Source: Sphingobacteriales bacterium
GTDB lineage: Bacteria > Bacteroidota > Bacteroidia > Chitinophagales > Chitinophagaceae
DNA: 49,465 nucleotides
Reading direction: 5' to 3'
Assembly (NCBI GenBank): GCA_027491165.1
Contig: JAIXWS010000092.1
Location: 1-49,465 of the forward strand
In this document: in pieces, positions 3,128 to 31,148 of the stretch
Layout: each line of letters starts with the position of its first letter
Position numbering within the stretch: position 1 is the first letter of the stretch
Program-made: the position numbers and the translations under genes
Notes under the pieces: model-generated
Databases searched by the model: none
Told to the model about the DNA's origin: nothing
Seen by the model: the letters and a program-made list of their open reading frames with translations, nothing else

Positions 3128-3249
3128 ACTCTAATTTTGTTTCAGATGGTAAATATAGATTATTTTTTGCTTTGGTTTTAGCTATTTTCCACCAAGTTTT
3201 CCCCAGTTTTGTATTTTTAACCTTATCATTACATATCAGTTATCAATCA

Positions 3250-4410
3250 ATGAAAATGTTTCAAAATTTGCCCCAAAAACATAGGTCTGCAGATATCAGT
3301 ATATTCAGTGTCATGAGTGCCTTAGCCTCACAACATGATGCCATCAACCTTTCTCAAGGATTTCCTGATTTTCCGATAGATCCCGAACTAGGTGCTCTCT
3401 TGCATGAGGCCACTGTCAAAGGCTGGAATCAATATGCCCCGATGACTGGATTGCCCCAATTGCGAGAAGCTATTGCTGCCGATTTTAAGAGAAGATATGC
3501 TGTCAACCTCAATCCTGACACAGAAATAAGCATTACACCAGGAGCCACATACGCAATTTACAGCGCTTTTTCGGCCATATTGGGTCCAGGAGACGAGGTG
3601 ATTGTATTGGAACCAGCCTACGATAGTTATATCCCCAATATAGAAATGAATGGCGCTAAGGCCGTACCCGTAAAACTAGTACCGCATACTTTTGCACCCG
3701 ATTGGCAAGCCATAAAAGACGCCATTTCAACCAAAACCAAAGCCATAATCATCAATACCCCTCACAACCCTACAGGCAGTATTTGGGCCCATAAGGATTG
3801 GAATCAACTAGCCGATTTAGTGCGGGATACCTCTATCTTTATCTTGTCGGATGAAGTATATGAGCAATTGATATTTGATGAACAAAGCCATTACAGTATA
3901 GTACAACACCCTGAATTAAGGGAACGTAGTTTTGCTGTTTTTTCCTTTGGCAAGGCATTTCACAATACAGGTTGGAAAATGGGCTATTGTATCGCAGCAC
4001 CTATGCTAACACAAGCCTTTCGCAGACTGCATCAATTTTTGGGTTTTAGTGTAAACACACCAGCACAATTTGCCCTAGCTCAGTATCTAAGCCTCGACAA
4101 GCGGGAAGCGCCCAACACATTATTGCAAAGCAAACGGGATTATTTTTTAGAATTGATGAAAGAAACCCCTTTTACACTGTTGGCGCCAGCTGCAGGTAGC
4201 TATTTTCAACTCGCATCTTATGCCCATATGTCCGATTTGCCCGATACAGCCTTTGCAAGATTATTGACTGAAAAATATGGTGTTGCCACCATACCTATTA
4301 GTGCTTTTTATAGCGATAAACATGACGATAAAATCTTACGTTTTTGCTTTGCCAAAAAAGAAGAGACATTGAAAGCAGCCATAGAAAGGCTAGCTAAAAT
4401 TGATTTGTAA
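3250..4410 (+). CDS. PLP-dependent aminotransferase, methionine aminotransferase (YbdL/MtnE) type
   Basis: A class I/II aminotransferase of 386 residues. The PLP lysine sits in SFGKAFHNTGWK (Lys235), and the fold motifs NLSQGFPDF, NTPHNPTG and SDEVYE are all present. The SFGK-x-x-H-x-TGWKxGYC block matches E. coli YbdL and related methionine or glutamine/phenylalanine transaminases, which use 2-oxoacids such as 4-methylthio-2-oxobutanoate. An open frame extends upstream to a TTG at 3172, but those 26 residues are hydrophobic and not part of the family, so ATG 3250 is preferred. An omega-amidase gene of the YafV type lies at 38711-39490; such enzymes often remove the 2-oxoglutaramate left by these transaminases. 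Substrate choice is inferred. Confidence 0.85.
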   Translation: MKMFQNLPQKHRSADISIFSVMSALASQHDAINLSQGFPDFPIDPELGALLHEATVKGWNQYAPMTGLPQLREAIAADFKRRYAVNLNPDTEISITPGATYAIYSAFSAILGPGDEVIVLEPAYDSYIPNIEMNGAKAVPVKLVPHTFAPDWQAIKDAISTKTKAIIINTPHNPTGSIWAHKDWNQLADLVRDTSIFILSDEVYEQLIFDEQSHYSIVQHPELRERSFAVFSFGKAFHNTGWKMGYCIAAPMLTQAFRRLHQFLGFSVNTPAQFALAQYLSLDKREAPNTLLQSKRDYFLELMKETPFTLLAPAAGSYFQLASYAHMSDLPDTAFARLLTEKYGVATIPISAFYSDKHDDKILRFCFAKKEETLKAAIERLAKIDL

Positions 4411-4507
4411 ATGATTTTTTACAAGCTTTTTGAGCTGGAAGGAAATGCCCCCAAAATGGAAAAAAATGATAAGCAAAAAATGTAAGGCTAATAGTCAATA
4501 GTGACTT

Positions 4508-4537
4508 ATTGAATTGAATTGAATTGAATTGAATTGA
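4508..4537 (+). repeat. Pentanucleotide microsatellite, six copies of ATTGA
   Basis: Six perfect head-to-tail copies of ATTGA lie in the convergent intergenic space between the aminotransferase gene and the imelysin gene. A 6-bp inverted repeat (4495-4500 with 4507-4512) overlaps its left end. No coding or promoter role is evident. Confidence 0.9.
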
Positions 4538-4549
4538 CTGCAATAACAA

Positions 4550-4578
4550 AAAGCCCAATCCATACTGGACTGGGCTTT
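4550..4578. terminator. Bidirectional hairpin terminator for two convergent genes
   Basis: The left arm 4550-4562 pairs with the right arm 4566-4578, with one internal A/C mismatch and a three-base loop. A-rich sequence before it and T-rich sequence within the arms fit use from both sides. It separates the aminotransferase (ending 4410) from the leftward imelysin gene (ending 4602). Confidence 0.75.
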
Positions 4579-4601
4579 GAAAATAAGGCAAGCTCCAAAA
4601 A

Positions 4602-5675
4602 TTAGTCTGTAATATTGTCTTTTATAAAAGGAATCAATTCTGTAGAAATGGTAGAACGCAAAGAATCTACCGCATCGATAGCGATTTTAACTTCCATCTT
4701 TTTGAAGTAAATAGCAGAATCTAAAGGCATTTTAATAGCACTCACAGCTGAATCCACTGCATTCATTCTCGCTGTTAGTTTGGTATCCAAACTAGCTTTT
4801 TTATCCAAAACGAGGTCTTTAATGCCATAACCCATTGAACCCTTGTAGCGTCCCGTATACACGCTTTTCAAAGAGGATATATTATTTTTGATATCAACAA
4901 TAGAAAGATTAGCGTAGGGTGACTCTACAATAGTAGAATCTACAGCATAAAATGGTGCTCCTAAATTATCTGTTACAAGACGAGAGCATAAATCATTCAT
5001 ACCACCAACCATTACCGTAAACAAGTCTTGTTTTTTCTTAAAAGTGGTACCACCATTACCCGCAAAAATAATTTCAGAACCATAATTTTTAGATCCGGCA
5101 GACCATTCATTAAATAGCGCAACGCTATTATTGAGAAGATCCTTAGCAAGGTTAAATAGATATTTTCTTTGTCTGAAATCTATATCATTAGCAGGTCTAT
5201 TGCCATTGGAACCATACATAACATACTCCATTGCATGAAATCCACGAAAATTCTCACTTAGCTTTTCAACATCGGGCATATCTAATGGATTAGAACTAGC
5301 CAATAATGCGTCAAAATCTGCTGCTTTGGCAGGCCAAGTCTGCATTCTGCTGTTGTATTTGCCATTTTTAACAGGTCCAAAATGAAAACTTTCGGTGCGT
5401 TCCCAAGCTACTCTAGCATTTTTCCAAGCGGCTTTTAGCAGAACCAAATCAGACGAAAATCCTGAGATATAGTAATTTTCAGATGCGGCTTTCAATTGTA
5501 ACATTGAATTATTTAAATCGCTATAGGCAGGGAGAGCTACATCTTCGGCGAAATTATAAATGACGCGCGTCTTCAATTCACCAAAATCTTTAGGCTTTGT
5601 ATCCGTTTCCGTTTTTTTACAAGAGCCCATTAGGAGTACTGAAGTTGCGGTAAATAGTAAAATTTTACTTTTCAT
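4602..5675 (-). CDS. Imelysin-family (M75) lipoprotein
   Basis: A 357-residue outer-surface lipoprotein. The signal peptide ends in a lipobox, LLMGSC, with Cys19 as the lipidation site. The mature part has the imelysin signature GxHxxE at 145-150 (GFHAMEYVMYG) and the upstream AWERTESFHFGP block typical of the family. Imelysin-like proteins (IrpA, EfeO-related) bind metal and are linked to iron uptake; proteolytic activity is doubtful for most of them. In many Bacteroidota an imelysin is followed by a di-heme or HmuY-like partner, but here the gene stands alone between convergent and divergent neighbours. Iron-responsive expression is likely from family knowledge, but I recognise no Fur site. 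Confidence 0.88.
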   Translation of the reverse strand: MKSKILLFTATSVLLMGSCKKTETDTKPKDFGELKTRVIYNFAEDVALPAYSDLNNSMLQLKAASENYYISGFSSDLVLLKAAWKNARVAWERTESFHFGPVKNGKYNSRMQTWPAKAADFDALLASSNPLDMPDVEKLSENFRGFHAMEYVMYGSNGNRPANDIDFRQRKYLFNLAKDLLNNSVALFNEWSAGSKNYGSEIIFAGNGGTTFKKKQDLFTVMVGGMNDLCSRLVTDNLGAPFYAVDSTIVESPYANLSIVDIKNNISSLKSVYTGRYKGSMGYGIKDLVLDKKASLDTKLTARMNAVDSAVSAIKMPLDSAIYFKKMEVKIAIDAVDSLRSTISTELIPFIKDNITD

Positions 5676-5858
5676 AAAAAATGTGATGTTGATAAAAAAT
5701 GTTAGTTGTCTTATTCTTTTGGATACTGAAAAAAAATCAATTTAACGTACTCAGTATTTTTATAAGGCCTAAAGATATTATATTTCTCAAAAGTCAATAA
5801 ACATTTTCTTAAAAAAGTGAAAAGAAAACATAGCTCTACGAAAATCAGAAATCAAATA

Positions 5859-5866
5859 TACATTTG
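5859..5866 (+). promoter_or_regulatory. Candidate -7 element (TACATTTG) of parE
   Basis: Perfect match to the Bacteroidota -7 consensus TAnnTTTG, 27 bp before the ATG at 5894. No convincing TTG -33 element is present. It overlaps an in-frame TTG at 5864, which argues against that codon being the start. Confidence 0.6.
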
Positions 5867-5893
5867 CCATTCTTAAAAGAACGGAACAAAAAA

Positions 5894-7786
5894 ATGGCAG
5901 AACAAGAAGTAATTTATAACGAAGACAGTATTAAATCCCTAGATTGGCGGGAACATATTCGGCTTCGTCCGGGTATGTACATTGGCAAATTAGGAGATGG
6001 GAGCAGTATGGATGATGGGATTTACGTCTTGCTCAAAGAGGTATTAGACAACTGTATCGACGAATACATGATGGGCCATGGCAAACGCATTGAAATTAAA
6101 CTTGATAACGGAGTAGCTAGCATTCGCGACTACGGGCGAGGGATTCCATTGGGTAAAGTTGTCGATGTGGTAAGTAAAATAAATACAGGGGCCAAATATG
6201 ATAGCAAGGCATTTCAAAAATCTGTAGGACTGAATGGCGTGGGTACCAAAGCAGTGAATGCCCTCAGCAATAAGTTTTTAGTAAGCTCTTTTAGAGAGGG
6301 TAAAATGAAAACAGCCGAATTTGAACGCGGTGTTTTACTCAAAGAACATAAAGAGGTTGCTACAACAGAACCGAATGGAACTTTTGTAAGCTTTACGCCA
6401 GACGATACTATTTTCAAACATTATAAATACATTTTCGAATACGTTGAAAACCAAATTTGGAACTATTGTTTCTTGAATGCAGGCCTACAAATCAATTTCA
6501 ATGGTCGGAACTTTATTTCAAAAAATGGCTTACTGGACTTATTGCAGCGCAAAGCAAATCCCGAGTCCATGCGTTATCCTATTATTCACCTCAAGGGAAA
6601 TGATATTGAGGTAGCCATAACCCATACAGGTGATTATGGAGAGGATTTGTACTCATTTGTGAATGGACAACATACCACACAAGGCGGGACACATCAAGGT
6701 GCTTTTCGAGAAGCATTTGTAAAAGTCGTTCGCGACTTCTTTAAGAAGGATTATGATGCGGCAGACGTGCGCCAAAGTATTTGTGCAGCCATCGCCGTAA
6801 GGGTTCAAGAACCTGTGTTTGAGAGCCAAACCAAAACAAAATTGGGTTCGCAATCCGTTTCTGAAGGAGGACAAAGCATGAAAGCATTTGTACTCGATTT
6901 CTTAGCTAAAGAATTAGACAATTATTTACATAAAAATCAGTCCACCGCAGATGCAATAAAAAAGCGCATCGAACAAAGCGAACGCGAGCGTAAAGAATTG
7001 TCGGGCATCAGGAAACTAGCCAATGAAAGGGCTAAAAAAGCTAATTTACACAATAAAAAATTGCGTGATTGCCGTATTCATTACAATGGCGAAGCTCCTG
7101 CCAAAAACAAAGAAGAATATGTTTTAAAACAAAATGAATCTACTGTATTCATCACCGAAGGAGACTCGGCTAGTGGCTCTATTACCAAAAGTAGAAATGT
7201 AGAAAGTCAAGCAGTTTTTAGTCTTCGTGGTAAACCATTAAACTGCTATGGGCTGACCAAAAAAATCGTCTACGAAAACGAAGAGTTCAATTTGCTACAA
7301 CATGCTTTGAATATAGAAGAAGGACTTGAGGGCTTGCGCTACAATAATATTGTTATCGCTACTGATGCCGATGTGGATGGCATGCATATTCGCTTGTTGA
7401 TCATGACTTTTTTCCTCCAATTCTTCCCCGATTTGGTGCGTAACGGGCATGTGTATATTTTGGAAACACCTTTATTTAGGGTTCGAAATAAACAGAAAAC
7501 AATTTATTGCTATAGTGACGAAGAACGTCAAAGAGCCATTCATGAATTGGGTAATAAGCCAGAGATTACCCGATTTAAAGGTTTGGGAGAAATATCACCC
7601 GAAGAATTTGGCAAATTCATTGGTGAGGATATGCGTAAAGTACCCGTAATGTTAAGCCAAGATACACAAATTCAAAAATTATTAGAATATTTTATGGGTA
7701 AAAACACTCCAGATCGACAGGTTTTCATCATCAATAATTTGGTGGTAGAAAAAGACCTTGAAGAAGAATTACTGGCTCTAAAATAA
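5894..7786 (+). CDS. parE: DNA topoisomerase IV subunit B
   Basis: The 630-residue ATPase subunit of topoisomerase IV, which decatenates daughter chromosomes together with ParC. The GHKL ATPase part shows [17 protein letters not shown] and DYGRGIPLG. The TOPRIM domain shows TEGDSASG near residue 422 and DADVDGMH near residue 491, and a C-terminal RFKGLGE block follows. The N-terminus ([17 protein letters not shown], then [10 protein letters not shown]) is that of the Bacteroidota ParE branch rather than GyrB. The frame is open from a TTG at 5864, but that codon lies inside the -7 promoter element, so ATG 5894 is chosen. In many relatives parC follows directly; here the next gene is a convergent transporter, so parC must be elsewhere. 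Confidence 0.9.
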
Positions 7787-9013: not shown

Positions 9014-9937
9014 ATGAATTATACCTTGAATCAACTCCAAATATTTTTGAGCGTTGTAAAAAGCCAAAGCGTTACAAAAGCCTCAGAAGAATTACATTTA
9101 ACCCAACCTGCTGTTTCTATTCAACTTAAAAATTTTCAAGAACAATTCGAAATACCCCTTACAGAAGTAATTGGCAGAAAAATTTTCATAACCGATTTCG
9201 GAAAGGAAATCGCCATAGCTGCGGAGCAAATTCTCAATCAAGTATATGCCATTAACTATAAAACACTTGCTTTTAAAGGCCAACTATCAGGTCGCTTAAA
9301 AATATCAGTGGTATCAACGGGAAAATATGTAATGCCCTATTTCCTTTCAGATTTCATACAACAAAATGCGGGTGTAGAATTACTAATGGACGTAACCAAT
9401 AAAAATAAGGTTATTGAAAGCTTGGAGCATAATGAGGTAGACTTTGCTTTGGTCTCCGTACTGCCTACCAAAATGAAGATTGAGAAACTGGATCTATTGC
9501 ACAATAAGTTGTACTTAGTAGGAAATGCCCAAGCAACTTTTAAGAAAAAAAACAAATCAAAAGCCATATTTAATGATCTGCCCTTGATTTACAGAGAAAG
9601 CGGATCGGGTACACGACAAACAATGGAACATTTTATTGAAAAAAACAAGATCAAAACGCTCAAGAAATTAGAGCTTACAACGAATGAGGCTGTAAAACAG
9701 GCCATTTTAGCGAAACTTGGTTATTCAATTATGCCCTTGATAGGTATTAAAAGTGAATTACAAAATAACGAATTACAAATTATACCAGTAGCAGGTCTGC
9801 CTATCAAAACTACCTGGAGTTTAATCTGGTTAAAAGGCAAAAAACACTCACCTGTATGCCTTTCCTTTCTGGAGCATTTACAAAAAGAAAAAGAAGCGAT
9901 AGTCCATAATAACTTCAGTTGGTACGAAAACTATTAG
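9014..9937 (+). CDS. LysR-family transcriptional regulator, likely controlling sbtA
   Basis: A 307-residue LysR-type regulator. Residues 1-60 are the winged helix-turn-helix (LNQLQIFLSVVK, TQPAVSIQLKNFQ), and residues of about 90-295 form the periplasmic-binding-like effector domain. The N-terminal helix resembles the RbcR/CmpR/CysB branch, whose members sense metabolites such as 2-phosphoglycolate or 2-oxoglutarate and control carbon-concentrating genes in autotrophs. Here it is divergent from sbtA and therefore probably regulates it. Which effector it senses cannot be read from sequence. The start ATG at 9014 gives a full family N-terminus. Confidence 0.88.
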   Translation: MNYTLNQLQIFLSVVKSQSVTKASEELHLTQPAVSIQLKNFQEQFEIPLTEVIGRKIFITDFGKEIAIAAEQILNQVYAINYKTLAFKGQLSGRLKISVVSTGKYVMPYFLSDFIQQNAGVELLMDVTNKNKVIESLEHNEVDFALVSVLPTKMKIEKLDLLHNKLYLVGNAQATFKKKNKSKAIFNDLPLIYRESGSGTRQTMEHFIEKNKIKTLKKLELTTNEAVKQAILAKLGYSIMPLIGIKSELQNNELQIIPVAGLPIKTTWSLIWLKGKKHSPVCLSFLEHLQKEKEAIVHNNFSWYENY

Positions 9938-9994
9938 TGGATATTTGTGTAAGAGGGGAAAATCGAAAAAAGCTAAATAAAATGATCCAAAACA

Positions 9995-10031
9995 AAAAAA
10001 ACCTGCAAACAAATTGTTTGCAGGTTTTTTT
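9995..10031. terminator. Bidirectional terminator between the LysR gene and sppA
   Basis: The left arm AAAAAAACCTGCAAAC (9995-10010) pairs with the right arm from 10016 to 10031, giving a GC-containing stem flanked by an A run and a T run. It serves the convergent ends of the LysR gene (9937) and sppA (10044). Confidence 0.85.
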
Positions 10032-10043
10032 TGAATAGACTTA

Positions 10044-11834
10044 TTAATTCGTTTTCATTTCGAATGGCAATAGCATCATCGACTGACCATTCATATTGCT
10101 TAATTTTTTGAGACGCACCAATTCCTTTGCTTCATTACCTAATTGATTAACCACTGCAGCAGAGACTGCATCTTGGGCTGAGCTACCTTTAAACATTTTC
10201 AAAAAAGATTTGAACTTATCCACTTTTTCAGGATAAGTGCGTATTTCATAATCTTTGATTTTAGCTAAAACAGCAGCACTAGCAATAGCGCGATCCAAAT
10301 TACCTAAGGCATCAACTAAGCCATTTTGCTTCCCAGCAATACCTGTCCACACGCGACCTTGGGCGATAGAATCTACTGCTGCTTCGGTCATTTTTCGACC
10401 ATTAGCCACTCTGCGCTTAAATAGGGCGTAAATCGAATCAACGCCCCTCTGCATCATAGCACTTTCCTCAAGAGACATGCTACGTGTAGCATTGGGAAAG
10501 TCGGCATAAGGCGCGTTTTTCACCTGATCGAAAGTAATACCTAACTTATTATTCATTAATTTTTCGGTATTAAACATCATCGAGAAGACACCAATACTGC
10601 CCGTAATAGTAGTAGGCATAGCAAAAATACTATCTGCAGCGCAAGCAATATAATAACCACCACTGGCAGCTACATCACCCATAGAAACCACAATCGGTTT
10701 CTTTTGATGCAATAATTGCAATTCGCGCAAGATGATTTCTGAGGCTCTAGCGCTACCGCCCGGGGAGTTGATACGCAATACGACGGCTTTAATTTTATCA
10801 TTATTGCGCACGGAACGGATGGTTTTGGCCATATCCACATCGGTAATTTCATAATCACCATTAGCTTCACCATCACTGATTTGCCCCTCCGCAAAAATGA
10901 CTGCAATGCGCTTGTCACTATCTTTTTCATCATTATCGCTATCTATATCAGAAAAATCACTAAGACTAGCAAAGCTGATTTCCTTGTCCGTTTGTACTTT
11001 TAATTTTGCCTTCATCATTGACTCTACTTCATCCCAATACCGAACAGCATCGACGATTTTATATTTTAAGGCATCCTGAGGAAACTGAATGGCACCTGAT
11101 TGGGCTAAAGCATTTACAGCAGCGGCATCAGTATGGTTGTGTGCAGCAATAGCGGCAGTAAACTCATTCCAAATATCGGTTTGAATGGCAGCTACTTGCT
11201 GACGGTTGGGTTCACTCATTTTGTCGGCACGAAAAGGCTCAGTAGCGCTCTTAAATTTGCCTGCATAAAAAATTTGAGGTTCAACCTCTAACTTGTCCAA
11301 GGCATTTTTGAAAAATGTCAATTCGGTATGCAATCCCTTCAATTCAACATCTCCAGCAGGATTGACAAAAATACTGTCTGCCGCAGAGGCAACATACAAG
11401 GCACCTTGGGTAATGCTTTCGCCATAGGCATATACAAATTTACCTGATTGTTTAAATTTCAATACAGATTCTCTTATTTGTTGTAAGGTGGCAAAGCTAT
11501 TGGGACTGGGTGCTAGCTTGATGTATAAACCCTTAATCTTATCATCTTTGGCTGCAGCCTGCATTGCTTTGGCGATTTCATAAACACCCGATTCTGATCC
11601 ACCACCACTTCCCATAAAGGAAAAAGAATTTTCCTCGCCTTGCTCGTGAAAAGATTCACTAAGATCTAGTTGCAACAAGCTATTTTCTTTAACGCTAAGC
11701 TTGTTTTCATCAGTACTATTCATAGCACTAGTGGCTAATCCAACAATTGCACCAATAAATAAACCGATGGCGATTACACTGGCTACAATTACACCCAATA
11801 AAGAGGCAAAAAACATTTTAAAAAACTGCTTCAT
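10044..11834 (-). CDS. sppA: Signal peptide peptidase SppA, 67-kDa type
   Basis: A 596-residue membrane-bound serine protease of family S49 that digests leftover signal peptides. An N-terminal transmembrane segment spans about residues 8-36. Two tandem crotonase-like domains follow: the first supplies the general base Lys195 in GKFKSATEPF and the second the nucleophile Ser391 in DVAASGGYYIA. Together they form the Ser-Lys dyad, as in the E. coli tetrameric enzyme. An acidic Asp/Ser/Glu-rich linker lies at about 293-307. The length is typical of the long form. A strong promoter is visible just upstream, divergent from folK. Confidence 0.93.
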   Translation of the reverse strand: MKQFFKMFFASLLGVIVASVIAIGLFIGAIVGLATSAMNSTDENKLSVKENSLLQLDLSESFHEQGEENSFSFMGSGGGSESGVYEIAKAMQAAAKDDKIKGLYIKLAPSPNSFATLQQIRESVLKFKQSGKFVYAYGESITQGALYVASAADSIFVNPAGDVELKGLHTELTFFKNALDKLEVEPQIFYAGKFKSATEPFRADKMSEPNRQQVAAIQTDIWNEFTAAIAAHNHTDAAAVNALAQSGAIQFPQDALKYKIVDAVRYWDEVESMMKAKLKVQTDKEISFASLSDFSDIDSDNDEKDSDKRIAVIFAEGQISDGEANGDYEITDVDMAKTIRSVRNNDKIKAVVLRINSPGGSARASEIILRELQLLHQKKPIVVSMGDVAASGGYYIACAADSIFAMPTTITGSIGVFSMMFNTEKLMNNKLGITFDQVKNAPYADFPNATRSMSLEESAMMQRGVDSIYALFKRRVANGRKMTEAAVDSIAQGRVWTGIAGKQNGLVDALGNLDRAIASAAVLAKIKDYEIRTYPEKVDKFKSFLKMFKGSSAQDAVSAAVVNQLGNEAKELVRLKKLSNMNGQSMMLLPFEMKTN

Positions 11835-13524: not shown

Positions 13525-13562
13525 AAAAAAGGGGCAATATTTGATATGGCCCCTTTTTTTTA
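13523..13562. terminator. Bidirectional terminator between trhO and the propeller gene
   Basis: An A8 run, GGGGC (13531-13535), a small internal ATAT/ATAT stem, GCCCC (13549-13553) and a T8 run give a strong hairpin that works in both directions. It overlaps the last codons of both convergent genes. Confidence 0.85.
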
Positions 13563-15917
13563 TTGCTTAAAAATTTGCTGTTGATAAAGACCATTAATCG
13601 AAACATAATAGAAACCTGGAAGCAAATGTTCTAAATCGATGCTTATTTCTTTTGCAGCAATACCCTCCTTAGCATAAACTTTTTGACCCATGGTATTGTG
13701 AATAGTGATTGTTTCTAAAGTACCTTGCGATTCAAGATTAAGCCTATCATAAAGGGGATTGGGGTATATTTTGTATTCTACCCTAGCCTTTTCGCTGATG
13801 ACTGAAGGCACTTTAGGAAATGGAAATATAAATTTGGCTAAAAATCCATCATCAAGGCCTGCATGGGTATTTTGGTGTGATGAAGCTGTAGCAATACCAC
13901 TAGTACTTTTAGTTAATCCACAAAGAAAAAGCTGTTCTCCTGAAATTGAAATATGCGAACCGTAATCGGACAAAAGACCGCCATAATAGCTAGCCCATTG
14001 CCTTTGGCCGCTATCATTAAAATGCAAAAGTATCGCATCATATTCGCCACCCAATGTCTTTTGGTATGCAGAGTCTGAAGCAATGTTGAAAATACTATTG
14101 CTCATTCCGGCAACAAAGACATCCTTCATCCCCCTAATTTGCACATCATAAGCCACCTCCTCACCCAAAAAACCATAATAGGTACCCCATTGTCGGATAC
14201 CATTTTTATTGAGCTTAGCTAAAAAGATATCATAAGGGCCACCAGCCCAAGCGCTTTGGTATGCACCAGGGCTAGCAATTTTATCGGTACTAAAAGTAGC
14301 GCCAGCCAGGTATACGTTTAAAGAATCATCTACAGCGGTAGCATAACAAATATCGGAAGCTGAACCGCCATAATAAGTGGCCCATTGTCTTATTCCGTTT
14401 GAATTAAACTTTGCTACAAAGCCATCTGTACTCGTACTGCCAACACTACCACTATAGGCCGGCTGATGGGTGCCTGATGTAGCAATACCTGCAGGGCTAG
14501 GAGTTTGTCCACTGATATAAACATTGCCCAGCCTATCCGTGCTTAATTTATATATCCTCTCAGCCAATACACCCCCGTAATAAGTTGCCCATTGTCGCAC
14601 ACCTGAACTATTAAACTTTGCTAAATAGGCATCGTTCCAATCTGTACTGGCTATTGTTGGCTGATGACTACTAAGAGTAGCTATACCAGAAATGCTGTTT
14701 GTATGCCCACCAAGATACACATTACCCATATCATCAGTAGCTACATAAGCATCGGCTTCTTGATTTTCGCCACCATAATAAGTGCCCCATTCCAAGGCCC
14801 CTTCCAAAGTAAATTTTGCCAAGAAGGCATCCTGCCCAAAACCAACATGCGAAAAAACAGCTTGATGAGACCCAGTTGTTGCAATACCTGAAGCACTGGT
14901 AGTGCTTCCCGATAAAAATAGTGCAGATTTACCCAAGGCTAAGGCTGCACCAATATCTCCACTAAAACCGCCATAATAAGTGGCCCATTCCCTTAAACCG
15001 TCCTGCGTCATCCTGAAAATAAAAGCATCTTGACTTGCGCTAGGATTAGTCGCTTTATAGGACCCCACAGTGGCTATATTACTAGTACTCATCGTTGTAC
15101 CTGCCGCATAAATAGCGTTACCATTTGTTTTAATCATATTGATATTATCTGAACCAGTACCACCATAATAAGTAGCCCAAACCAAGCTAGGATCGATGAT
15201 TAATTCGCCCTGAAAAGCGGCCATTTGATAGGATAGTTGTTGTTGATTTAATACAAATTTGGATGAAATGTGCTTTCCCTTTTTTTGAAAGGATACGGGG
15301 GCAGATTCTTTTATTTCTCCCAAACTACACCGTGCAATTAAATTACCCCTTTGATCTATAAAGAGTGTATCCGCACCAGTATAATTCAATTTGATATCCG
15401 AAACTTTAGCGCCAGGCGACAAATGAAATTCATGTTTTAATTGTTGTCCTTCGACAAAAAGTACCCAATCGATATGGGGATAAATGTTTTTATACCTGAT
15501 TCTCGAATATGAACTAGCCTTGATGTTATTGAACCCTTGTAGATGGTAATACTCATAGTATGGGCTGCTCACTTCTTTAATCGGCGTCACATTAGGGTTG
15601 GCTCCTTCCAGGGTAACTTCCATTCTTGACCAATCAACCCCAATATCAGCAAGTATAGTTGATGCTTGATTGGAGGTATTTACCTTCGAAAACTGATAAA
15701 TTATTTTGTTGGACCCTATAAATACACTCAATCCCTTCGCAGAAGCTATTTTAAAATCAATGTCCTCACGTATCTGATGATATTGATTGTTAATTTGGCC
15801 TTTATTTTCAATAAAACACAAGTCGGCTCCTTTCAATGGGGCAGCTATTAGCCTCAGCTTACCGAACAAAAGGAAAAGACAAATTAAGAGGCAATAGACT
15901 TTAGAATTGAGATTCAT
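13560..15917 (-). CDS. Secreted SBBP-repeat beta-propeller protein with T9SS type A sorting domain
   Basis: A 785-residue secreted protein. An N-terminal signal peptide is followed by a DUF7948-like beta-rich domain (about residues 30-240). Then come seven copies of a roughly 65-residue SBBP repeat, each holding a W-[AGS]-[TS]-YYG motif and a later IA...[SH]Q...DAFLAKF-type strand, predicting a complete seven-bladed propeller. The last 75 residues are a Por-secretion (T9SS type A) domain starting YPNPLYDRLNLES. The product should be exported through the Sec and type IX systems and fixed at the surface or released. No catalytic residues are evident; binding or adhesion is the usual guess. A well-spaced promoter lies just upstream. 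Confidence 0.9.
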   Translation of the reverse strand: MNLNSKVYCLLICLFLLFGKLRLIAAPLKGADLCFIENKGQINNQYHQIREDIDFKIASAKGLSVFIGSNKIIYQFSKVNTSNQASTILADIGVDWSRMEVTLEGANPNVTPIKEVSSPYYEYYHLQGFNNIKASSYSRIRYKNIYPHIDWVLFVEGQQLKHEFHLSPGAKVSDIKLNYTGADTLFIDQRGNLIARCSLGEIKESAPVSFQKKGKHISSKFVLNQQQLSYQMAAFQGELIIDPSLVWATYYGGTGSDNINMIKTNGNAIYAAGTTMSTSNIATVGSYKATNPSASQDAFIFRMTQDGLREWATYYGGFSGDIGAALALGKSALFLSGSTTSASGIATTGSHQAVFSHVGFGQDAFLAKFTLEGALEWGTYYGGENQEADAYVATDDMGNVYLGGHTNSISGIATLSSHQPTIASTDWNDAYLAKFNSSGVRQWATYYGGVLAERIYKLSTDRLGNVYISGQTPSPAGIATSGTHQPAYSGSVGSTSTDGFVAKFNSNGIRQWATYYGGSASDICYATAVDDSLNVYLAGATFSTDKIASPGAYQSAWAGGPYDIFLAKLNKNGIRQWGTYYGFLGEEVAYDVQIRGMKDVFVAGMSNSIFNIASDSAYQKTLGGEYDAILLHFNDSGQRQWASYYGGLLSDYGSHISISGEQLFLCGLTKSTSGIATASSHQNTHAGLDDGFLAKFIFPFPKVPSVISEKARVEYKIYPNPLYDRLNLESQGTLETITIHNTMGQKVYAKEGIAAKEISIDLEHLLPGFYYVSINGLYQQQIFKQ
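13979..15180 (-). repeat. Seven degenerate DNA repeats encoding the SBBP blades
   Basis: The 20-bp block CCGCCATAATAAGTGGCCCA or close variants (encoding WATYYGG) recurs near 13979, 14171, 14366, 14572, 14770, 14967 and 15160, giving periods of about 190-206 bp. These are internal repeats within the propeller gene. Confidence 0.85.
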
Positions 15918-27537: not shown

Positions 27538-27718
27538 TATTATTTTTTTCGGCTAGCAATACGCTACGCTTGGGTTCGGGAACATTTATAAAATCATAGG
27601 GACAGTGCCGGCATCCTGAACCGCAACAATAGCCTCTTTGAAGATGATATTGTTCGCTAAAAACCAATCGCCCATCGGGCAAGAAATAATAGTCCTCATC
27701 ACTACTGTTCTGTGGCAT
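27515..27718 (-). CDS. DUF5522 cysteine-rich small protein
   Basis: A 67-residue protein with DDYYFLPDGRLVFSEQYHL, then RGYCCGSGCRHCPYDF. The CC-x3-C-x2-C cluster plus histidines is the signature of DUF5522, a small family common in Bacteroidota and sometimes found fused to or beside other enzymes. Four cysteines suggest zinc or iron-sulfur binding. Its 5' end overlaps trmB by 17 nt and its 3' end overlaps the ATL gene by 23 nt, implying translational coupling. No function is known to me. Confidence 0.82.
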   Translation of the reverse strand: MPQNSSDEDYYFLPDGRLVFSEQYHLQRGYCCGSGCRHCPYDFINVPEPKRSVLLAEKNNNESNRQG

Positions 27719-28400
27719 CCTCGATTTCCATTTTTGCTTTGCGTTGGGGCACTACTATAGTCGTTTCGGGCAATGTGAAAGACAAATAATAAATAGTGCG
27801 CCCATCGGCCAAATGCATTTTTTCGTAAAATGTCTGAATCGCCAAAGGCCCTACAGCCATACCTTTTCCATAAATATCCGCAATATTTTCTACAATGCTA
27901 CAACCTTGCTCTTCAATAGTTTCGAGTGTAAAATCGTATAATTCTTTCGAGTCGGTTTTCAGCTTGATGACACCACCCTTTTTCATCACCTGCTGATAAA
28001 TATACAAGAATCGAGGATGCGTTAGTCGATTTTTGGGTTTCCGCAAAAAGGGATCAGAGAAAATAATCCAAATATCATTGACCTCTCCCTCGCCAAAATA
28101 TTCGGCTAAATGATCAATTTGCCCGCGAACAAAACCCACATTGGTAAGCCCTTCTTCCAGACTAATTTTGGCCCCATTATAGATTCGGTTACCTTTTATA
28201 TCAACACCTATATAATTATTGGTTTGGTTTACCCGTCCAAGTCCGACACTATATTCCCCTTTTCCACATGCCAATTCTAGGGTAATAGGATGATTATTTT
28301 TAAAAAAAACATGCCAATTATTGGGCATATTCTTAGGATATTGTAATACATTAGCAAAAGTATCAACTGCTCTGAATCGGATTAGTTTTTTGTGTCCCAT
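27702..28400 (-). CDS. trmB: tRNA (guanine(46)-N7)-methyltransferase
   Basis: TrmB methylates N7 of G46 in the tRNA variable loop using SAM. The 232 residues include the SAM motif LELACGKGEYSVGLG, NYIGVDIKGNRIYNGA, the acidic IIFSDPFLRKPKNRLTHPRFL block (the family has PDPWPKKRHxKRRL here) and a C-terminal TxYE-like QTFYEKM. The variant SDPFLRK is common in Bacteroidota members. It is first in a tightly overlapping operon with the DUF5522 and ATL genes. Its -7 element ends 7 bp upstream of the ATG, predicting an almost leaderless transcript. Confidence 0.92.
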   Translation of the reverse strand: MGHKKLIRFRAVDTFANVLQYPKNMPNNWHVFFKNNHPITLELACGKGEYSVGLGRVNQTNNYIGVDIKGNRIYNGAKISLEEGLTNVGFVRGQIDHLAEYFGEGEVNDIWIIFSDPFLRKPKNRLTHPRFLYIYQQVMKKGGVIKLKTDSKELYDFTLETIEEQGCSIVENIADIYGKGMAVGPLAIQTFYEKMHLADGRTIYYLSFTLPETTIVVPQRKAKMEIEDATEQ

Positions 28401-28463: not shown

Positions 28464-29291
28464 ATGAACAAAAAAATTCTACTCACTTCTTTAAGTTTAG
28501 GCATTGCTTACCTTTCTTTAACCAGTAAAGTATCTGGACCAGCAAATGCTTTATCAGCAAATTTAACAAAAACGAGCTGTGGTGGTAGTGGTTGTCATGC
28601 CGCAGGAAGTCCGTCCATTACAACAGGCATAGTAATTACTCCAGAGGGTAGTGGATTGCCCATTTCGAATGGTAGATACACACCCAATACAACTTATACT
28701 GTTGTACTATCTGGATTTAATACAAGTAGCTCCACATTATCAAAGTTTGGATTTCAAATAGCGGCAACAAAATCTGATGGAACACAGGCGGGCACAATAA
28801 GTGCAGCACCAACAGGTACTGCCATCAGAACCGTTTCAGGAATTTCCATTCTCGAACATTCATTAGCCCTAAACCAAGGTACATTGCCTGGTGCATATTC
28901 TGTAACCTTTAAATGGAAAGCACCGGCAGCAGGTGCAGGAGCAATCTCCTTTAACTATGTTGTTATGGGTGTAAATGGAAATAATGCTAGCTCTGGCGAT
29001 ATACCTTCACCATCTAGAGCAACAATATTTAATGAAACACCTGCTTCTATCAATGAAAAAATCAACAACATAGCGAGTACAGTTTACCCAAACCCTTGCA
29101 GCAATGTTTTGAATATTGAAACAGCTTCGGCTACCAAATTTATGGCTACTGTATATGATGTTGCTGGCCGTCAAGTAATGGCGCCAAGCCATCAAAACAG
29201 TATTGATGTATCCACATTAAACAATGGCTTGTATATACTTCGTCTACAAAACGAAGAAGGACAACAAACAGTTAGTTTTATCAAACAATAA
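28464..29291 (+). CDS. Choice-of-anchor V domain protein with T9SS sorting domain (copy 1)
   Basis: A 275-residue secreted protein. A signal peptide (about 1-25) is followed by SGPANAL and a Cys39-x4-Cys44-His45 motif (CGGSGCH), typical of choice-of-anchor V proteins and reminiscent of c-type heme attachment. A beta-sandwich of about 150 residues (PNTTYTVVLSG, KFGFQIAA, GAYSVTFKW) resembles Reeler-like domains. The C-terminus is a type A sorting domain (YPNPCSNVLNIETAS to SFIKQ). Surface location through T9SS is expected; biochemical role unknown. It is followed by a paralogue whose sorting domain is almost identical in DNA. The ATG at 28464 gives a proper signal peptide; an open frame continues upstream to 28392. 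Confidence 0.85.
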   Translation: MNKKILLTSLSLGIAYLSLTSKVSGPANALSANLTKTSCGGSGCHAAGSPSITTGIVITPEGSGLPISNGRYTPNTTYTVVLSGFNTSSSTLSKFGFQIAATKSDGTQAGTISAAPTGTAIRTVSGISILEHSLALNQGTLPGAYSVTFKWKAPAAGAGAISFNYVVMGVNGNNASSGDIPSPSRATIFNETPASINEKINNIASTVYPNPCSNVLNIETASATKFMATVYDVAGRQVMAPSHQNSIDVSTLNNGLYILRLQNEEGQQTVSFIKQ

Positions 29292-29357
29292 TTTATTGAT
29301 TTCTTAAAATTGAAATCGATCAAAAGCCCTTGTAAGCAGTAGCTTGCAAGGGCTTTT
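29083..29357 (+). repeat. 275-bp duplicated module, copy 1 (sorting domain + terminator)
   Basis: Aligns without gaps to 29988-30262 (offset 905 bp) with nine mismatches by manual comparison, about 97% identity. It covers the last 69 codons of the upstream gene, its stop, the 3' untranslated part and the terminator hairpin. Confidence 0.92.
29322..29357 (+). terminator. Terminator of copy 1
   Basis: Sixteen-base arms 29322-29337 and 29342-29357 pair with one G-T wobble around a four-base loop, ending in a T run. Confidence 0.85.
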
Positions 29358-29371
29358 TAATTCCAGACATC

Positions 29372-30196
29372 ATGCCTTCAACAGTTCAATTCTTTAAAAA
29401 AGAAATTTTCATAATTAGTTCTTTTCTATTGCTGTTTGGTTATACGGTTTCGTCTTATTCAAGTGGTCCAGCTGGTACAGTTTTATCCTGTTCGCGCAGT
29501 AGTTGCCATCATTTTATACCCGATAAAACAAGTATTAATATCAAATTGGTAGAAAAATGGAGTGGTTTAAACGTTCATGATGGATTCTATAAACCGAATA
29601 CGGAATATATCATTGAAATAAATGGAACGAATAAAGATAGTCTAGAGCATTTTGGATTTCAAACAATGATAAGTACGGGCACTGGAGCAACGGGAGGGAC
29701 GCTGATCGCTTCATCACCCAAAACAAATACAACATTAATTGGTGCAAATCCCACAATAGCGCACAACACAGTAATTGAGGGAGTAAAAAAAGGACTCTTC
29801 AAAATAAATTTTGAATGGATAGCACCAAACCCTGGGGTTGGTGAGATTAATTTTGCTAGTATTCTGAATGCTGTAAATATGGATGAAAGCGCATCTGGTG
29901 ACCAGCCAAGTGAAATTGTATCCCTAATGCTCAAAGAAAAAATAGACTTAAAAATCCAACCTAATAGAACTATTAAAGCAAGTAGTATTTACCCCAACCC
30001 TTGTAGCAATGTTTTGAATATTGAAACAGCTTCGGCTACCAAATTTATGGCTACTGTATATGATGTTGCTGGCCGTCAAGTAATGGCGCCAAGCCATCAA
30101 AACAGTATTGATGTATCCTCATTAAGCAATGGCTTGTATATACTTCGCCTCCAAAGCGAAGAAGGACAACAAACAGTTAGTTTTATCAAACAATAA
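29372..30196 (+). CDS. Choice-of-anchor V domain protein with T9SS sorting domain (copy 2)
   Basis: A 274-residue paralogue of the preceding gene. It has an N-terminal membrane/signal segment (about 10-30), SSGPAGTVLSC, the motif Cys40-x4-Cys45-His46, a beta-rich middle (YKPNTEYIIEI, EHFGFQTMI, GLFKINFEW) and a C-terminal type A sorting domain. The middle region is clearly diverged from copy 1, whereas the last 69 residues differ at only a few positions. It starts 15 bp after the terminator of copy 1, so it either relies on read-through or on a promoter inside copy 1. Function unknown; exported and surface-displayed by inference. Confidence 0.83.
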   Translation: MPSTVQFFKKEIFIISSFLLLFGYTVSSYSSGPAGTVLSCSRSSCHHFIPDKTSINIKLVEKWSGLNVHDGFYKPNTEYIIEINGTNKDSLEHFGFQTMISTGTGATGGTLIASSPKTNTTLIGANPTIAHNTVIEGVKKGLFKINFEWIAPNPGVGEINFASILNAVNMDESASGDQPSEIVSLMLKEKIDLKIQPNRTIKASSIYPNPCSNVLNIETASATKFMATVYDVAGRQVMAPSHQNSIDVSSLSNGLYILRLQSEEGQQTVSFIKQ

Positions 30197-30262
30197 TTTA
30201 TTGATTTCTTAAAATTGAAATCGATCAAAAGCCCTTGTAAGCAGCAGCTTGCAGGGGCTTTT
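29988..30262 (+). repeat. 275-bp duplicated module, copy 2 (sorting domain + terminator)
   Basis: Second copy of the module at 29083-29357. Identity ends sharply after the terminator stem and begins just at the YPNP start of the sorting domain. Confidence 0.92.
30227..30262 (+). terminator. Terminator of copy 2
   Basis: Duplicate of the copy 1 terminator: arms 30227-30242 and 30247-30262 pair with two G-T wobbles around a four-base loop, followed by a T-rich tract. It separates this gene from the convergent UbiA-like gene. Confidence 0.85.
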
Positions 30263-30272
30263 CTTTTCAGGA

Positions 30273-31148
30273 TTAACTATAAAACATTAGTATTAACAGG
30301 CCATTCAGCAACATTTGACCATCTATAAACAGGATATAATTCTTGTCGGAAGGATGACGACCTACAAAATGAATAGCCCCAAAAGTACTTATAGCTGTAA
30401 GTAAATGAATAACTAATCGATCTTCAAAACCAAAGCGGAAATACTGAACAAAAGCCAATAAAATGTACAGTATGCATAGTATAGCAATGAGCCTATACGT
30501 TTTCGCCAAGCCCATTCTATTCGGGATGGTCAATATCCCGGCCTCTAGATCTACAGCCCTATCTCGAATATCAAATGCTAGGCATAGAATAAACAAAAAC
30601 ACAAATCGCAACAGGATATCAAAAGGATAATGCGACAAGATTTGTTGATGATATAGAAGGGGCAAAAGAGCCGTAACACAAGTCCAAACCACACTCAACA
30701 AAAAAATTTTGAGCCACCCATAATCCTTTAATCGATGCTTATTTTTAAAGGGTAAAAAGGGCAAAGAGTATGCAAAGGAAAGGAGCGCCAAGACTAAGCA
30801 AATTGGCCACATTATGCTGGGCAATTGAAATGCAAAAATGCCAGAAAGCAATAAGCCCAAACCTAAAAAGATGTAGTTAAAATGCTTGTTGTCTTGCACC
30901 CAGGCATTTTGATCAGATAATGGAGCGGTAAATTTCTTGATTAAATAATGAACATTATAAACTACCAATGTACCAGCAACAACAAAGACATGAAGTACTG
31001 AAAAAAGTTGAGTTTTTTTTCCTACAAATAAGCACTCGCTTGCCCAACAAAGCACAAGAGCACAGGCTGCAGAAAATATACTTGTGAAGAATAAAAATTG
31101 TACTAAACGATCTAGCTTTTTCAATAAAAATTGATTAAACATAGGCAT
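30273..31148 (-). CDS. UbiA-like prenyltransferase-family membrane protein with a degenerate first motif
   Basis: A 291-residue protein with about eight or nine transmembrane helices. The second aspartate motif of UbiA prenyltransferases is visible as Asp193, Asp196 and Asp200 in FDIRDRAVD, followed by TIPNRMG. At the position of the first motif (normally N-x3-D-x3-D) it has Asn65 in YNVHYLIKKF, with no aspartate. UbiA enzymes need both motifs to bind magnesium-pyrophosphate, so this protein may be inactive, act on another substrate, or use a shifted motif. It overlaps the 3' end of mutY by 14 nt, as last gene of the DoxX-permease-MutY operon. UbiA fold likely; activity unknown. Confidence 0.7.
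   Translation of the reverse strand: MPMFNQFLLKKLDRLVQFLFFTSIFSAACALVLCWASECLFVGKKTQLFSVLHVFVVAGTLVVYNVHYLIKKFTAPLSDQNAWVQDNKHFNYIFLGLGLLLSGIFAFQLPSIMWPICLVLALLSFAYSLPFLPFKNKHRLKDYGWLKIFLLSVVWTCVTALLPLLYHQQILSHYPFDILLRFVFLFILCLAFDIRDRAVDLEAGILTIPNRMGLAKTYRLIAILCILYILLAFVQYFRFGFEDRLVIHLLTAISTFGAIHFVGRHPSDKNYILFIDGQMLLNGLLILMFYS

Follow-up and report, generated by a model that had tools for sequence, protein, structure and literature searches.

The contig JAIXWS010000092.1 of a Sphingobacteriales bacterium (assembly GCA_027491165.1), analyzed here over its 49,465 nucleotides and hereafter called the window, includes two tandem genes, named A and B, that encode choice-of-anchor V proteins ending in a type IX secretion system (T9SS) C-terminal sorting domain (CTD) and that are flanked by trmB and a ubiA-like gene. 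The two genes are highly diverged upstream of the CTD, but the region that encodes this domain, together with the stop codon, the non-coding leader that follows it and a terminator hairpin, is nearly identical in both. The best explanation of this structure, to which we assign a probability of about 80%, is a recent gene conversion of the CTD and terminator between diverged tandem paralogues, perhaps from A to B. The features on which the analysis is based are the following.

28464..29291, + strand: gene A, coding for 275 amino acids (signal peptide, CX4CH stretch, reeler-like beta-sandwich, T9SS CTD)
29372..30196, + strand: gene B, coding for 274 amino acids, with the same architecture as A
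29083..29357, + strand: repeat copy 1 (CTD of A, stop codon, 3' leader, terminator hairpin)
29988..30262, + strand: repeat copy 2 (CTD of B, stop codon, 3' leader, terminator hairpin)
29322..29357, + strand: hairpin and T run after A, likely an intrinsic terminator (16 pairs, -25.8 kcal/mol, z -7.1)
30227..30262, + strand: hairpin and T run after B (16 pairs, -25.5 kcal/mol, z -5.5)

A nearly identical 3' block in two diverged genes

A preliminary description of this DNA had reported a 275-bp block that recurs 905 bp downstream with nine mismatches and no gaps, and re-alignment returned exactly these figures, with 266 of 275 bases identical between the two copies at an offset of 905. The mismatches are located, in the coordinates of copy 1, at 29090, 29099, 29214, 29221, 29243, 29246, 29251, 29340 and 29349, and the exact runs between the copies include 114, 21 and 88 bases. 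The left end of the block coincides with the YPNP codons and its right end with the hairpin and its T run. These limits, which had been described as the start of YPNP and the point right after the terminator hairpin, were recovered by the best-scoring A-B segment, which extends from CTD codon 0 to 66 bases past the stop codon and was matched by none of 200 column permutations.

The upstream halves had been described as far more diverged, and this is the case: the 198 aligned codons upstream of the CTD show a DNA identity of 46% and a protein identity of 31%, with a nonsynonymous divergence (dN) of 0.83 and a synonymous divergence (dS) of 1.51, while the 68 codons from the block start on show a DNA identity of 97%, a dN of 0.02 and a dS of 0.10. 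At conserved residues the same codon is used in 26 of 59 cases upstream and in 59 of 63 cases in the CTD (Fisher P 9.8e-10). Conservation of the silent sites, and also of the leader and hairpin, which are non-coding, equals that of the CTD protein. The pair thus has the sharp block of identity between diverged flanks, silent sites included, by which gene conversion is recognized. The even synonymous divergence characteristic of a simple tandem duplication is not found, and this origin fails because dS changes from 1.51 to 0.10 along the genes. The view that the pair does not result from a simple gene duplication, which equal synonymous divergence over the entire length would have contradicted, was therefore sustained.

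Both hairpins are GC-rich, are followed by a T run and lie 3' of the stop codon, so that by predicted fold and sequence they have the characteristics of intrinsic terminators. The change of A to G at 29349 in the stem of the hairpin after B retains the pairing as G-U. A simple consensus terminator scan listed neither hairpin, perhaps, we think, because its stem rule consumes the A/T run, and a promoter scan returned nothing informative. A search of the own genome with the block gave 12 matches (E up to 1), only two of which were full length, and hence no third full copy; a mobile element carrying the block was considered and rejected on this basis.

Family models identify A and B as putative T9SS-exported cargo proteins. 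The choice-of-anchor V model NF041895 scores 57 bits with A and 47.6 with B, both over the curated cut-off of 42, and at the C-terminus the T9SS type A sorting domain is recognized by TIGR04183 (51.4 and 51.9 bits; curated cut-off 23) and by PF18962 (53.7 and 55.3 bits). The Reeler model PF02014 scores 21.7 with A and 16.8 with B, the latter under the cut-off of 21. The start of A was placed at the ATG at 28464 on the basis of its alignment with the starts in relatives; the mechanical open reading frame (ORF) begins at the GTG at 28392. A structural model of A, built from six sequences with a mean pLDDT of 67 and with CTD blocks mostly at pLDDT 76-91, predicts strands at residues 52-191, a low-confidence linker at 195-202 and a second set of strands at 205-274, the latter being those of the CTD. 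The model could be superimposed on the F-spondin reeler domain 2zou_A (TM by target 0.59) and on the NucA CTD chain 8glk_D of a T9SS complex (TM by target 0.81, 2.0 A, 74 columns), and the predicted fold of its C-terminal part is that of a T9SS type A sorting domain. Matches in the PDB by sequence alone were weak, the best having an E of 0.18.

Relatives of the two genes and tandem cargo arrays

Compared genomes are designated here by G-numbers, extracted loci by L-numbers, and choice-of-anchor V genes are called V genes. All six genomes compared within the genus include V genes, which are present in 68 of 294 genomes of the family, and trmB was located beside V genes in 15 of the 21 loci examined; two of the remaining ones (L104 and L118) are truncated by contig ends on that side. 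The 36 pairs that can be formed among nine V genes of the genus include a single one with low CTD dS, A-B (0.10), the next value being 0.78. The CTD tree places A and B as sisters (support 95). The front-half tree groups A with the V gene of G004 (support 86) and has B, whose residue make-up is odd, on a long branch.

G004 has a single V gene which, as judged by eye, adjoins the trmB start and corresponds in position to A. In its front half it shares 48% identity with A and 35% with B; in its CTD the values are 65% and 66%, respectively, and its terminator hairpin is similar. In this genome (L118) the V gene and ubiA are separated by a third gene (1243-2337), which from its motif we take to be a corA-like transporter; the window and G002 carry a second V gene at this point. 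G002 has, like the window, a tandem V pair between trmB and ubiA, the two CTDs of which are 37% identical and not homogenized. None of the near relatives among the loci compared shows the pre-conversion state. A contig scan with B found no relative, and one with trmB found six loci, with V genes in L122, L123 and L124, none of them close enough to show that state.

Homogenization centred on the CTD recurs in other tandem arrays. The arrays surveyed were chosen by eye from position lists of same-strand neighbours, as a non-exhaustive sample; for G136 (best 150), G172, G140 and G177 the choice was made only among the matches listed, and L164-L167 were left out. The 57 sources yielded 129 ORFs with a CTD and 101 same-strand pairs, of which 71 have cargo similarity (BLASTP E up to 1e-3) and 44 of these are adjacent; after one was dropped for having fewer than 40 CTD codons, 43 adjacent pairs from 28 arrays were compared. 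An excess was defined as a CTD DNA identity at least 0.15 (15 points) above that of the cargo. The control, which consists of V genes and of no other cargo family, made use of 32 of 39 V genes (the other seven were cut or had no motif), and of its 496 pairs 4 were dropped for a front identity under 25%.

An excess was found in 16 of the 43 adjacent paralogue pairs, belonging to 11 of the 28 arrays: six of these are from G136 and two from G172, and G177, G003 and the window contribute a single array apiece. Among the 472 between-genome V pairs the excess was found in 4, three of which involve B and the fourth A with G004 (Fisher P 1.1e-15, with the proviso that pairs from the same array cannot be treated as independent). 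When only V genes are considered, the excess is present in 4 of 15 adjacent pairs at two loci, the window and one of G136 (Fisher P 3.8e-5 against the control). A-B is the most extreme pair of the survey. The sequence past the stop codon is also common to both genes in six pairs from five loci. The tract permutation is meaningless for L162, where the segment extends from one end of the gene to the other, and the segments of L158, of 13 bases, amount to noise.

Several of the surveyed loci have features of their own. At 4036-7049 of L136, tandem cargo genes of another family have a common CTD, and their leader and hairpin are nearly the same. At 2155-7037 of L109 (G136) there are five tandem V genes beside trmB, and two neighbours among them are 93% identical in the CTD and 49% in the front. 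L158 (G177) includes two non-neighbouring array genes, at 3203-7171 and 9658-10560, the aligned fronts and tails of which are identical in protein sequence and 98% identical in DNA; this pair is a recent whole-segment copy. Finally, the orthologue-like V pairs G001b-G005 and G003-G002a (L102, L117, L119 and L120) have fronts 59-62% identical and CTDs 33-38% identical, as if tails had been replaced between species too.

Origin of the shared tail

A scheme that accounts for these results considers A and B as diverged tandem paralogues of T9SS-exported, reeler-like cargo, between which a non-reciprocal intrachromosomal recombination would have copied the 3' module of CTD, stop codon, leader and terminator, perhaps from A to B. 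The tract would span the stretch that is still alike in both genes and would halt where it meets heterology, at YPNP on the left and past the T run of the terminator on the right. The cargo halves may have diverged beyond the tolerance of recombination, and the CTD and terminator would be periodically re-homogenized. Such tracts would thus be the product of an island of residual likeness, the CTD and terminator, amid diverged cargo halves, and the outcome would be two different cargoes behind one export tag. The block, its sharp edges, the contrast in dS and the recurrence in other tandem arrays of the family are observed directly, whereas we infer conversion, and not duplication followed by deletion, as the mechanism, and likewise its direction and its halting at heterology. 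The preliminary description had proposed recent gene conversion or modular swapping. The dS contrast and the grouping in the trees support the former; swapping by a dedicated mechanism was not demonstrated and is not needed, and the sharp edges in the window, L148 and L141 leave room for one. A more ambitious idea, tentative and rather doubtful at present, is that the CTD and terminator form a cassette open to exchange, with the PNP codons at one end and the hairpin at the other, and that this cassette is copied again and again within tandem arrays as the cargo halves diversify freely and new cargoes are kept on the shared tag; short conserved ends may anchor the exchange.

With G004 as the only donor reference, a transfer from A to B is somewhat the more likely direction. 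Left of the edge A is equal to G004 at two codons where B differs, which weakly suggests that A was the donor, that the break fell within the YPNP codons and that some change occurred later in A.

Several observations weigh against these conclusions. At the third codon left of the edge it is the residue of B that equals that of G004, inside the block B agrees with G004 at four sites where A differs, and the overall polarization is mixed, with 152 and 155 of 213 bases matching G004. The excess is absent in 27 of the 43 adjacent pairs, including that of G002 at the same locus, and the loci that show it are unevenly distributed, 6 of 11 being from G136. Most of the other tracts begin upstream of the CTD, and there are few whose edge falls exactly where the domain starts: the window, L148 (one of the G172 arrays) and L141. 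The expectation that 3' modules would cluster by genome holds for the tails of A and B and agrees with the position of the A front beside G004, but the front tree also accepts an A+B clade (p-AU 0.66; the constrained tree is 6.5 log units above the free quick search). Since this sisterhood is not rejected, B may be a fast-evolving copy of A and not an old paralogue; in both cases the silent sites demand a recent exchange of tails.

The same end structure and the same 905 spacing could also have been generated by tandem duplication of a 905-base unit (CTD and terminator of A plus the front of B), joined within the YPNP codons, if the extra front and the old tail of B were deleted afterwards. 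This route requires two precise events, and the 10 bases between the second hairpin and ubiA contain no visible remnant of an old tail. The layout of G002 is similarly tight, with 60 bases from the stop codon of its second V gene to the ubiA end, and therefore the right edge fits a replacement in place. Duplication followed by deletion is consequently an improbable alternative to conversion. The long branch and odd residue make-up of the B front would be compatible with its acquisition by transfer and its fusion to a duplicated tail of A. Among the 294 family genomes, however, the B front best matches V genes of its own genus, and therefore a distant donor is not needed; we consider such an origin very unlikely. 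No more credit can be given to an assembly artefact, in which a metagenome-assembled or draft genome would have been collapsed or joined as a chimaera at the repeat. The source genome, of 2.12 Mb, is indeed in 145 contigs, and the contig scans found no independent assembly of the locus; on the other hand, the nine differences are scattered with no exact run longer than 114 bases, the order trmB - V - V - ubiA recurs in G002, and both reading frames are open.

Purifying selection for recognition by the T9SS, acting on the CTD without recombination, is the least credible of these explanations. The CTD is, according to the family models, a functional export signal, but the protein is no more conserved than its silent sites or than the leader and hairpin, which are non-coding, and nine neighbouring CTD gene pairs elsewhere in the own genome, the cargoes of which are unrelated, are only 21-40% identical in the CTD. 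Furthermore, orthologous CTDs diverge at least as fast as the fronts. The close orthologues of G010 and G179 are 93% identical in the front and 84-88% in the CTD, and those of G266 and G172 are 74-75% and 65-73% identical, respectively. Among the 32 between-genome pairs with a front identity of at least 45%, the CTD exceeded the front in DNA identity in only 8 and did not do so in the other 24. CTDs are therefore not intrinsically slow-evolving, and between close species their divergence equals or surpasses that of the fronts. An explanation by selection on the CTD alone was rejected on the combined basis of silent sites, leader and the speed of orthologous CTDs.

Known systems and other features of the locus

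Gene conversion itself is a well-known and ordinary process. A described case of intrachromosomal gene conversion is that of tufA and tufB of Salmonella (PMC5485169), which resembles A and B in the non-reciprocal copying between paralogues, the contiguous tracts and the block imposed by large differences. The tuf genes are nearly identical over their full length and far apart, whereas A and B are adjacent and alike only in the 3' module (PMC5485169). Rearrangement of T9SS surface proteins is also known: for the domains of the gingipains and haemagglutinins of Porphyromonas gingivalis, the authors invoke recombination and gene conversion (PMC5266723). There the adhesin domains and alleles vary among strains, and the sections of the article consulted do not describe homogenization of CTD and terminator between tandem genes (PMC5266723). 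No account of such homogenization in tandem cargo arrays was found among the open-access papers searched, subscription journals and preprint servers being mostly outside the scope of the search. The T9SS type A sorting domain (TIGR04183, PF18962) is wholly encoded by the block, and the family describes the tag and not its copying between genes. The architecture of A and B does not differ from that of the choice-of-anchor V family (NF041895), of which B is a diverged member.

A Bacteroidota genome may encode more than 100 T9SS cargoes (at least 150 in G136). If the tails of arrays are indeed re-homogenized while the cargoes diverge, CTD trees would not track the history of the cargo, comparisons of CTD signals within one genome would not be independent, and new surface proteins could arise through a changed gene front with a working export tag kept in place. 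The pattern of export-tag homogenization is accessible to population genomics.

The neighbours of A and B in the window are as follows.

27702..28400, - strand: trmB, upstream neighbour (NF001080, 213 bits)
30273..31148, - strand: ubiA-like prenyltransferase gene (PF01040, 46.3 bits), converging on B and lying 10 bases past the second hairpin

The CTD model TIGR04183 has 68 matches in the own genome. A further T9SS cargo gene of the window, at 13560-15917 on the - strand, encodes a DUF7948 domain, SBBP beta-propeller repeats and a CTD. The CX4CH motif of A and B is found just past the signal peptide, at 28578-28598 in A and 29489-29512 in B. In a set of 23 V proteins its second Cys and its His do not vary, and conservation of the first Cys is at least 90%; we presume a likeness of this stretch to an unusual haem c attachment motif.
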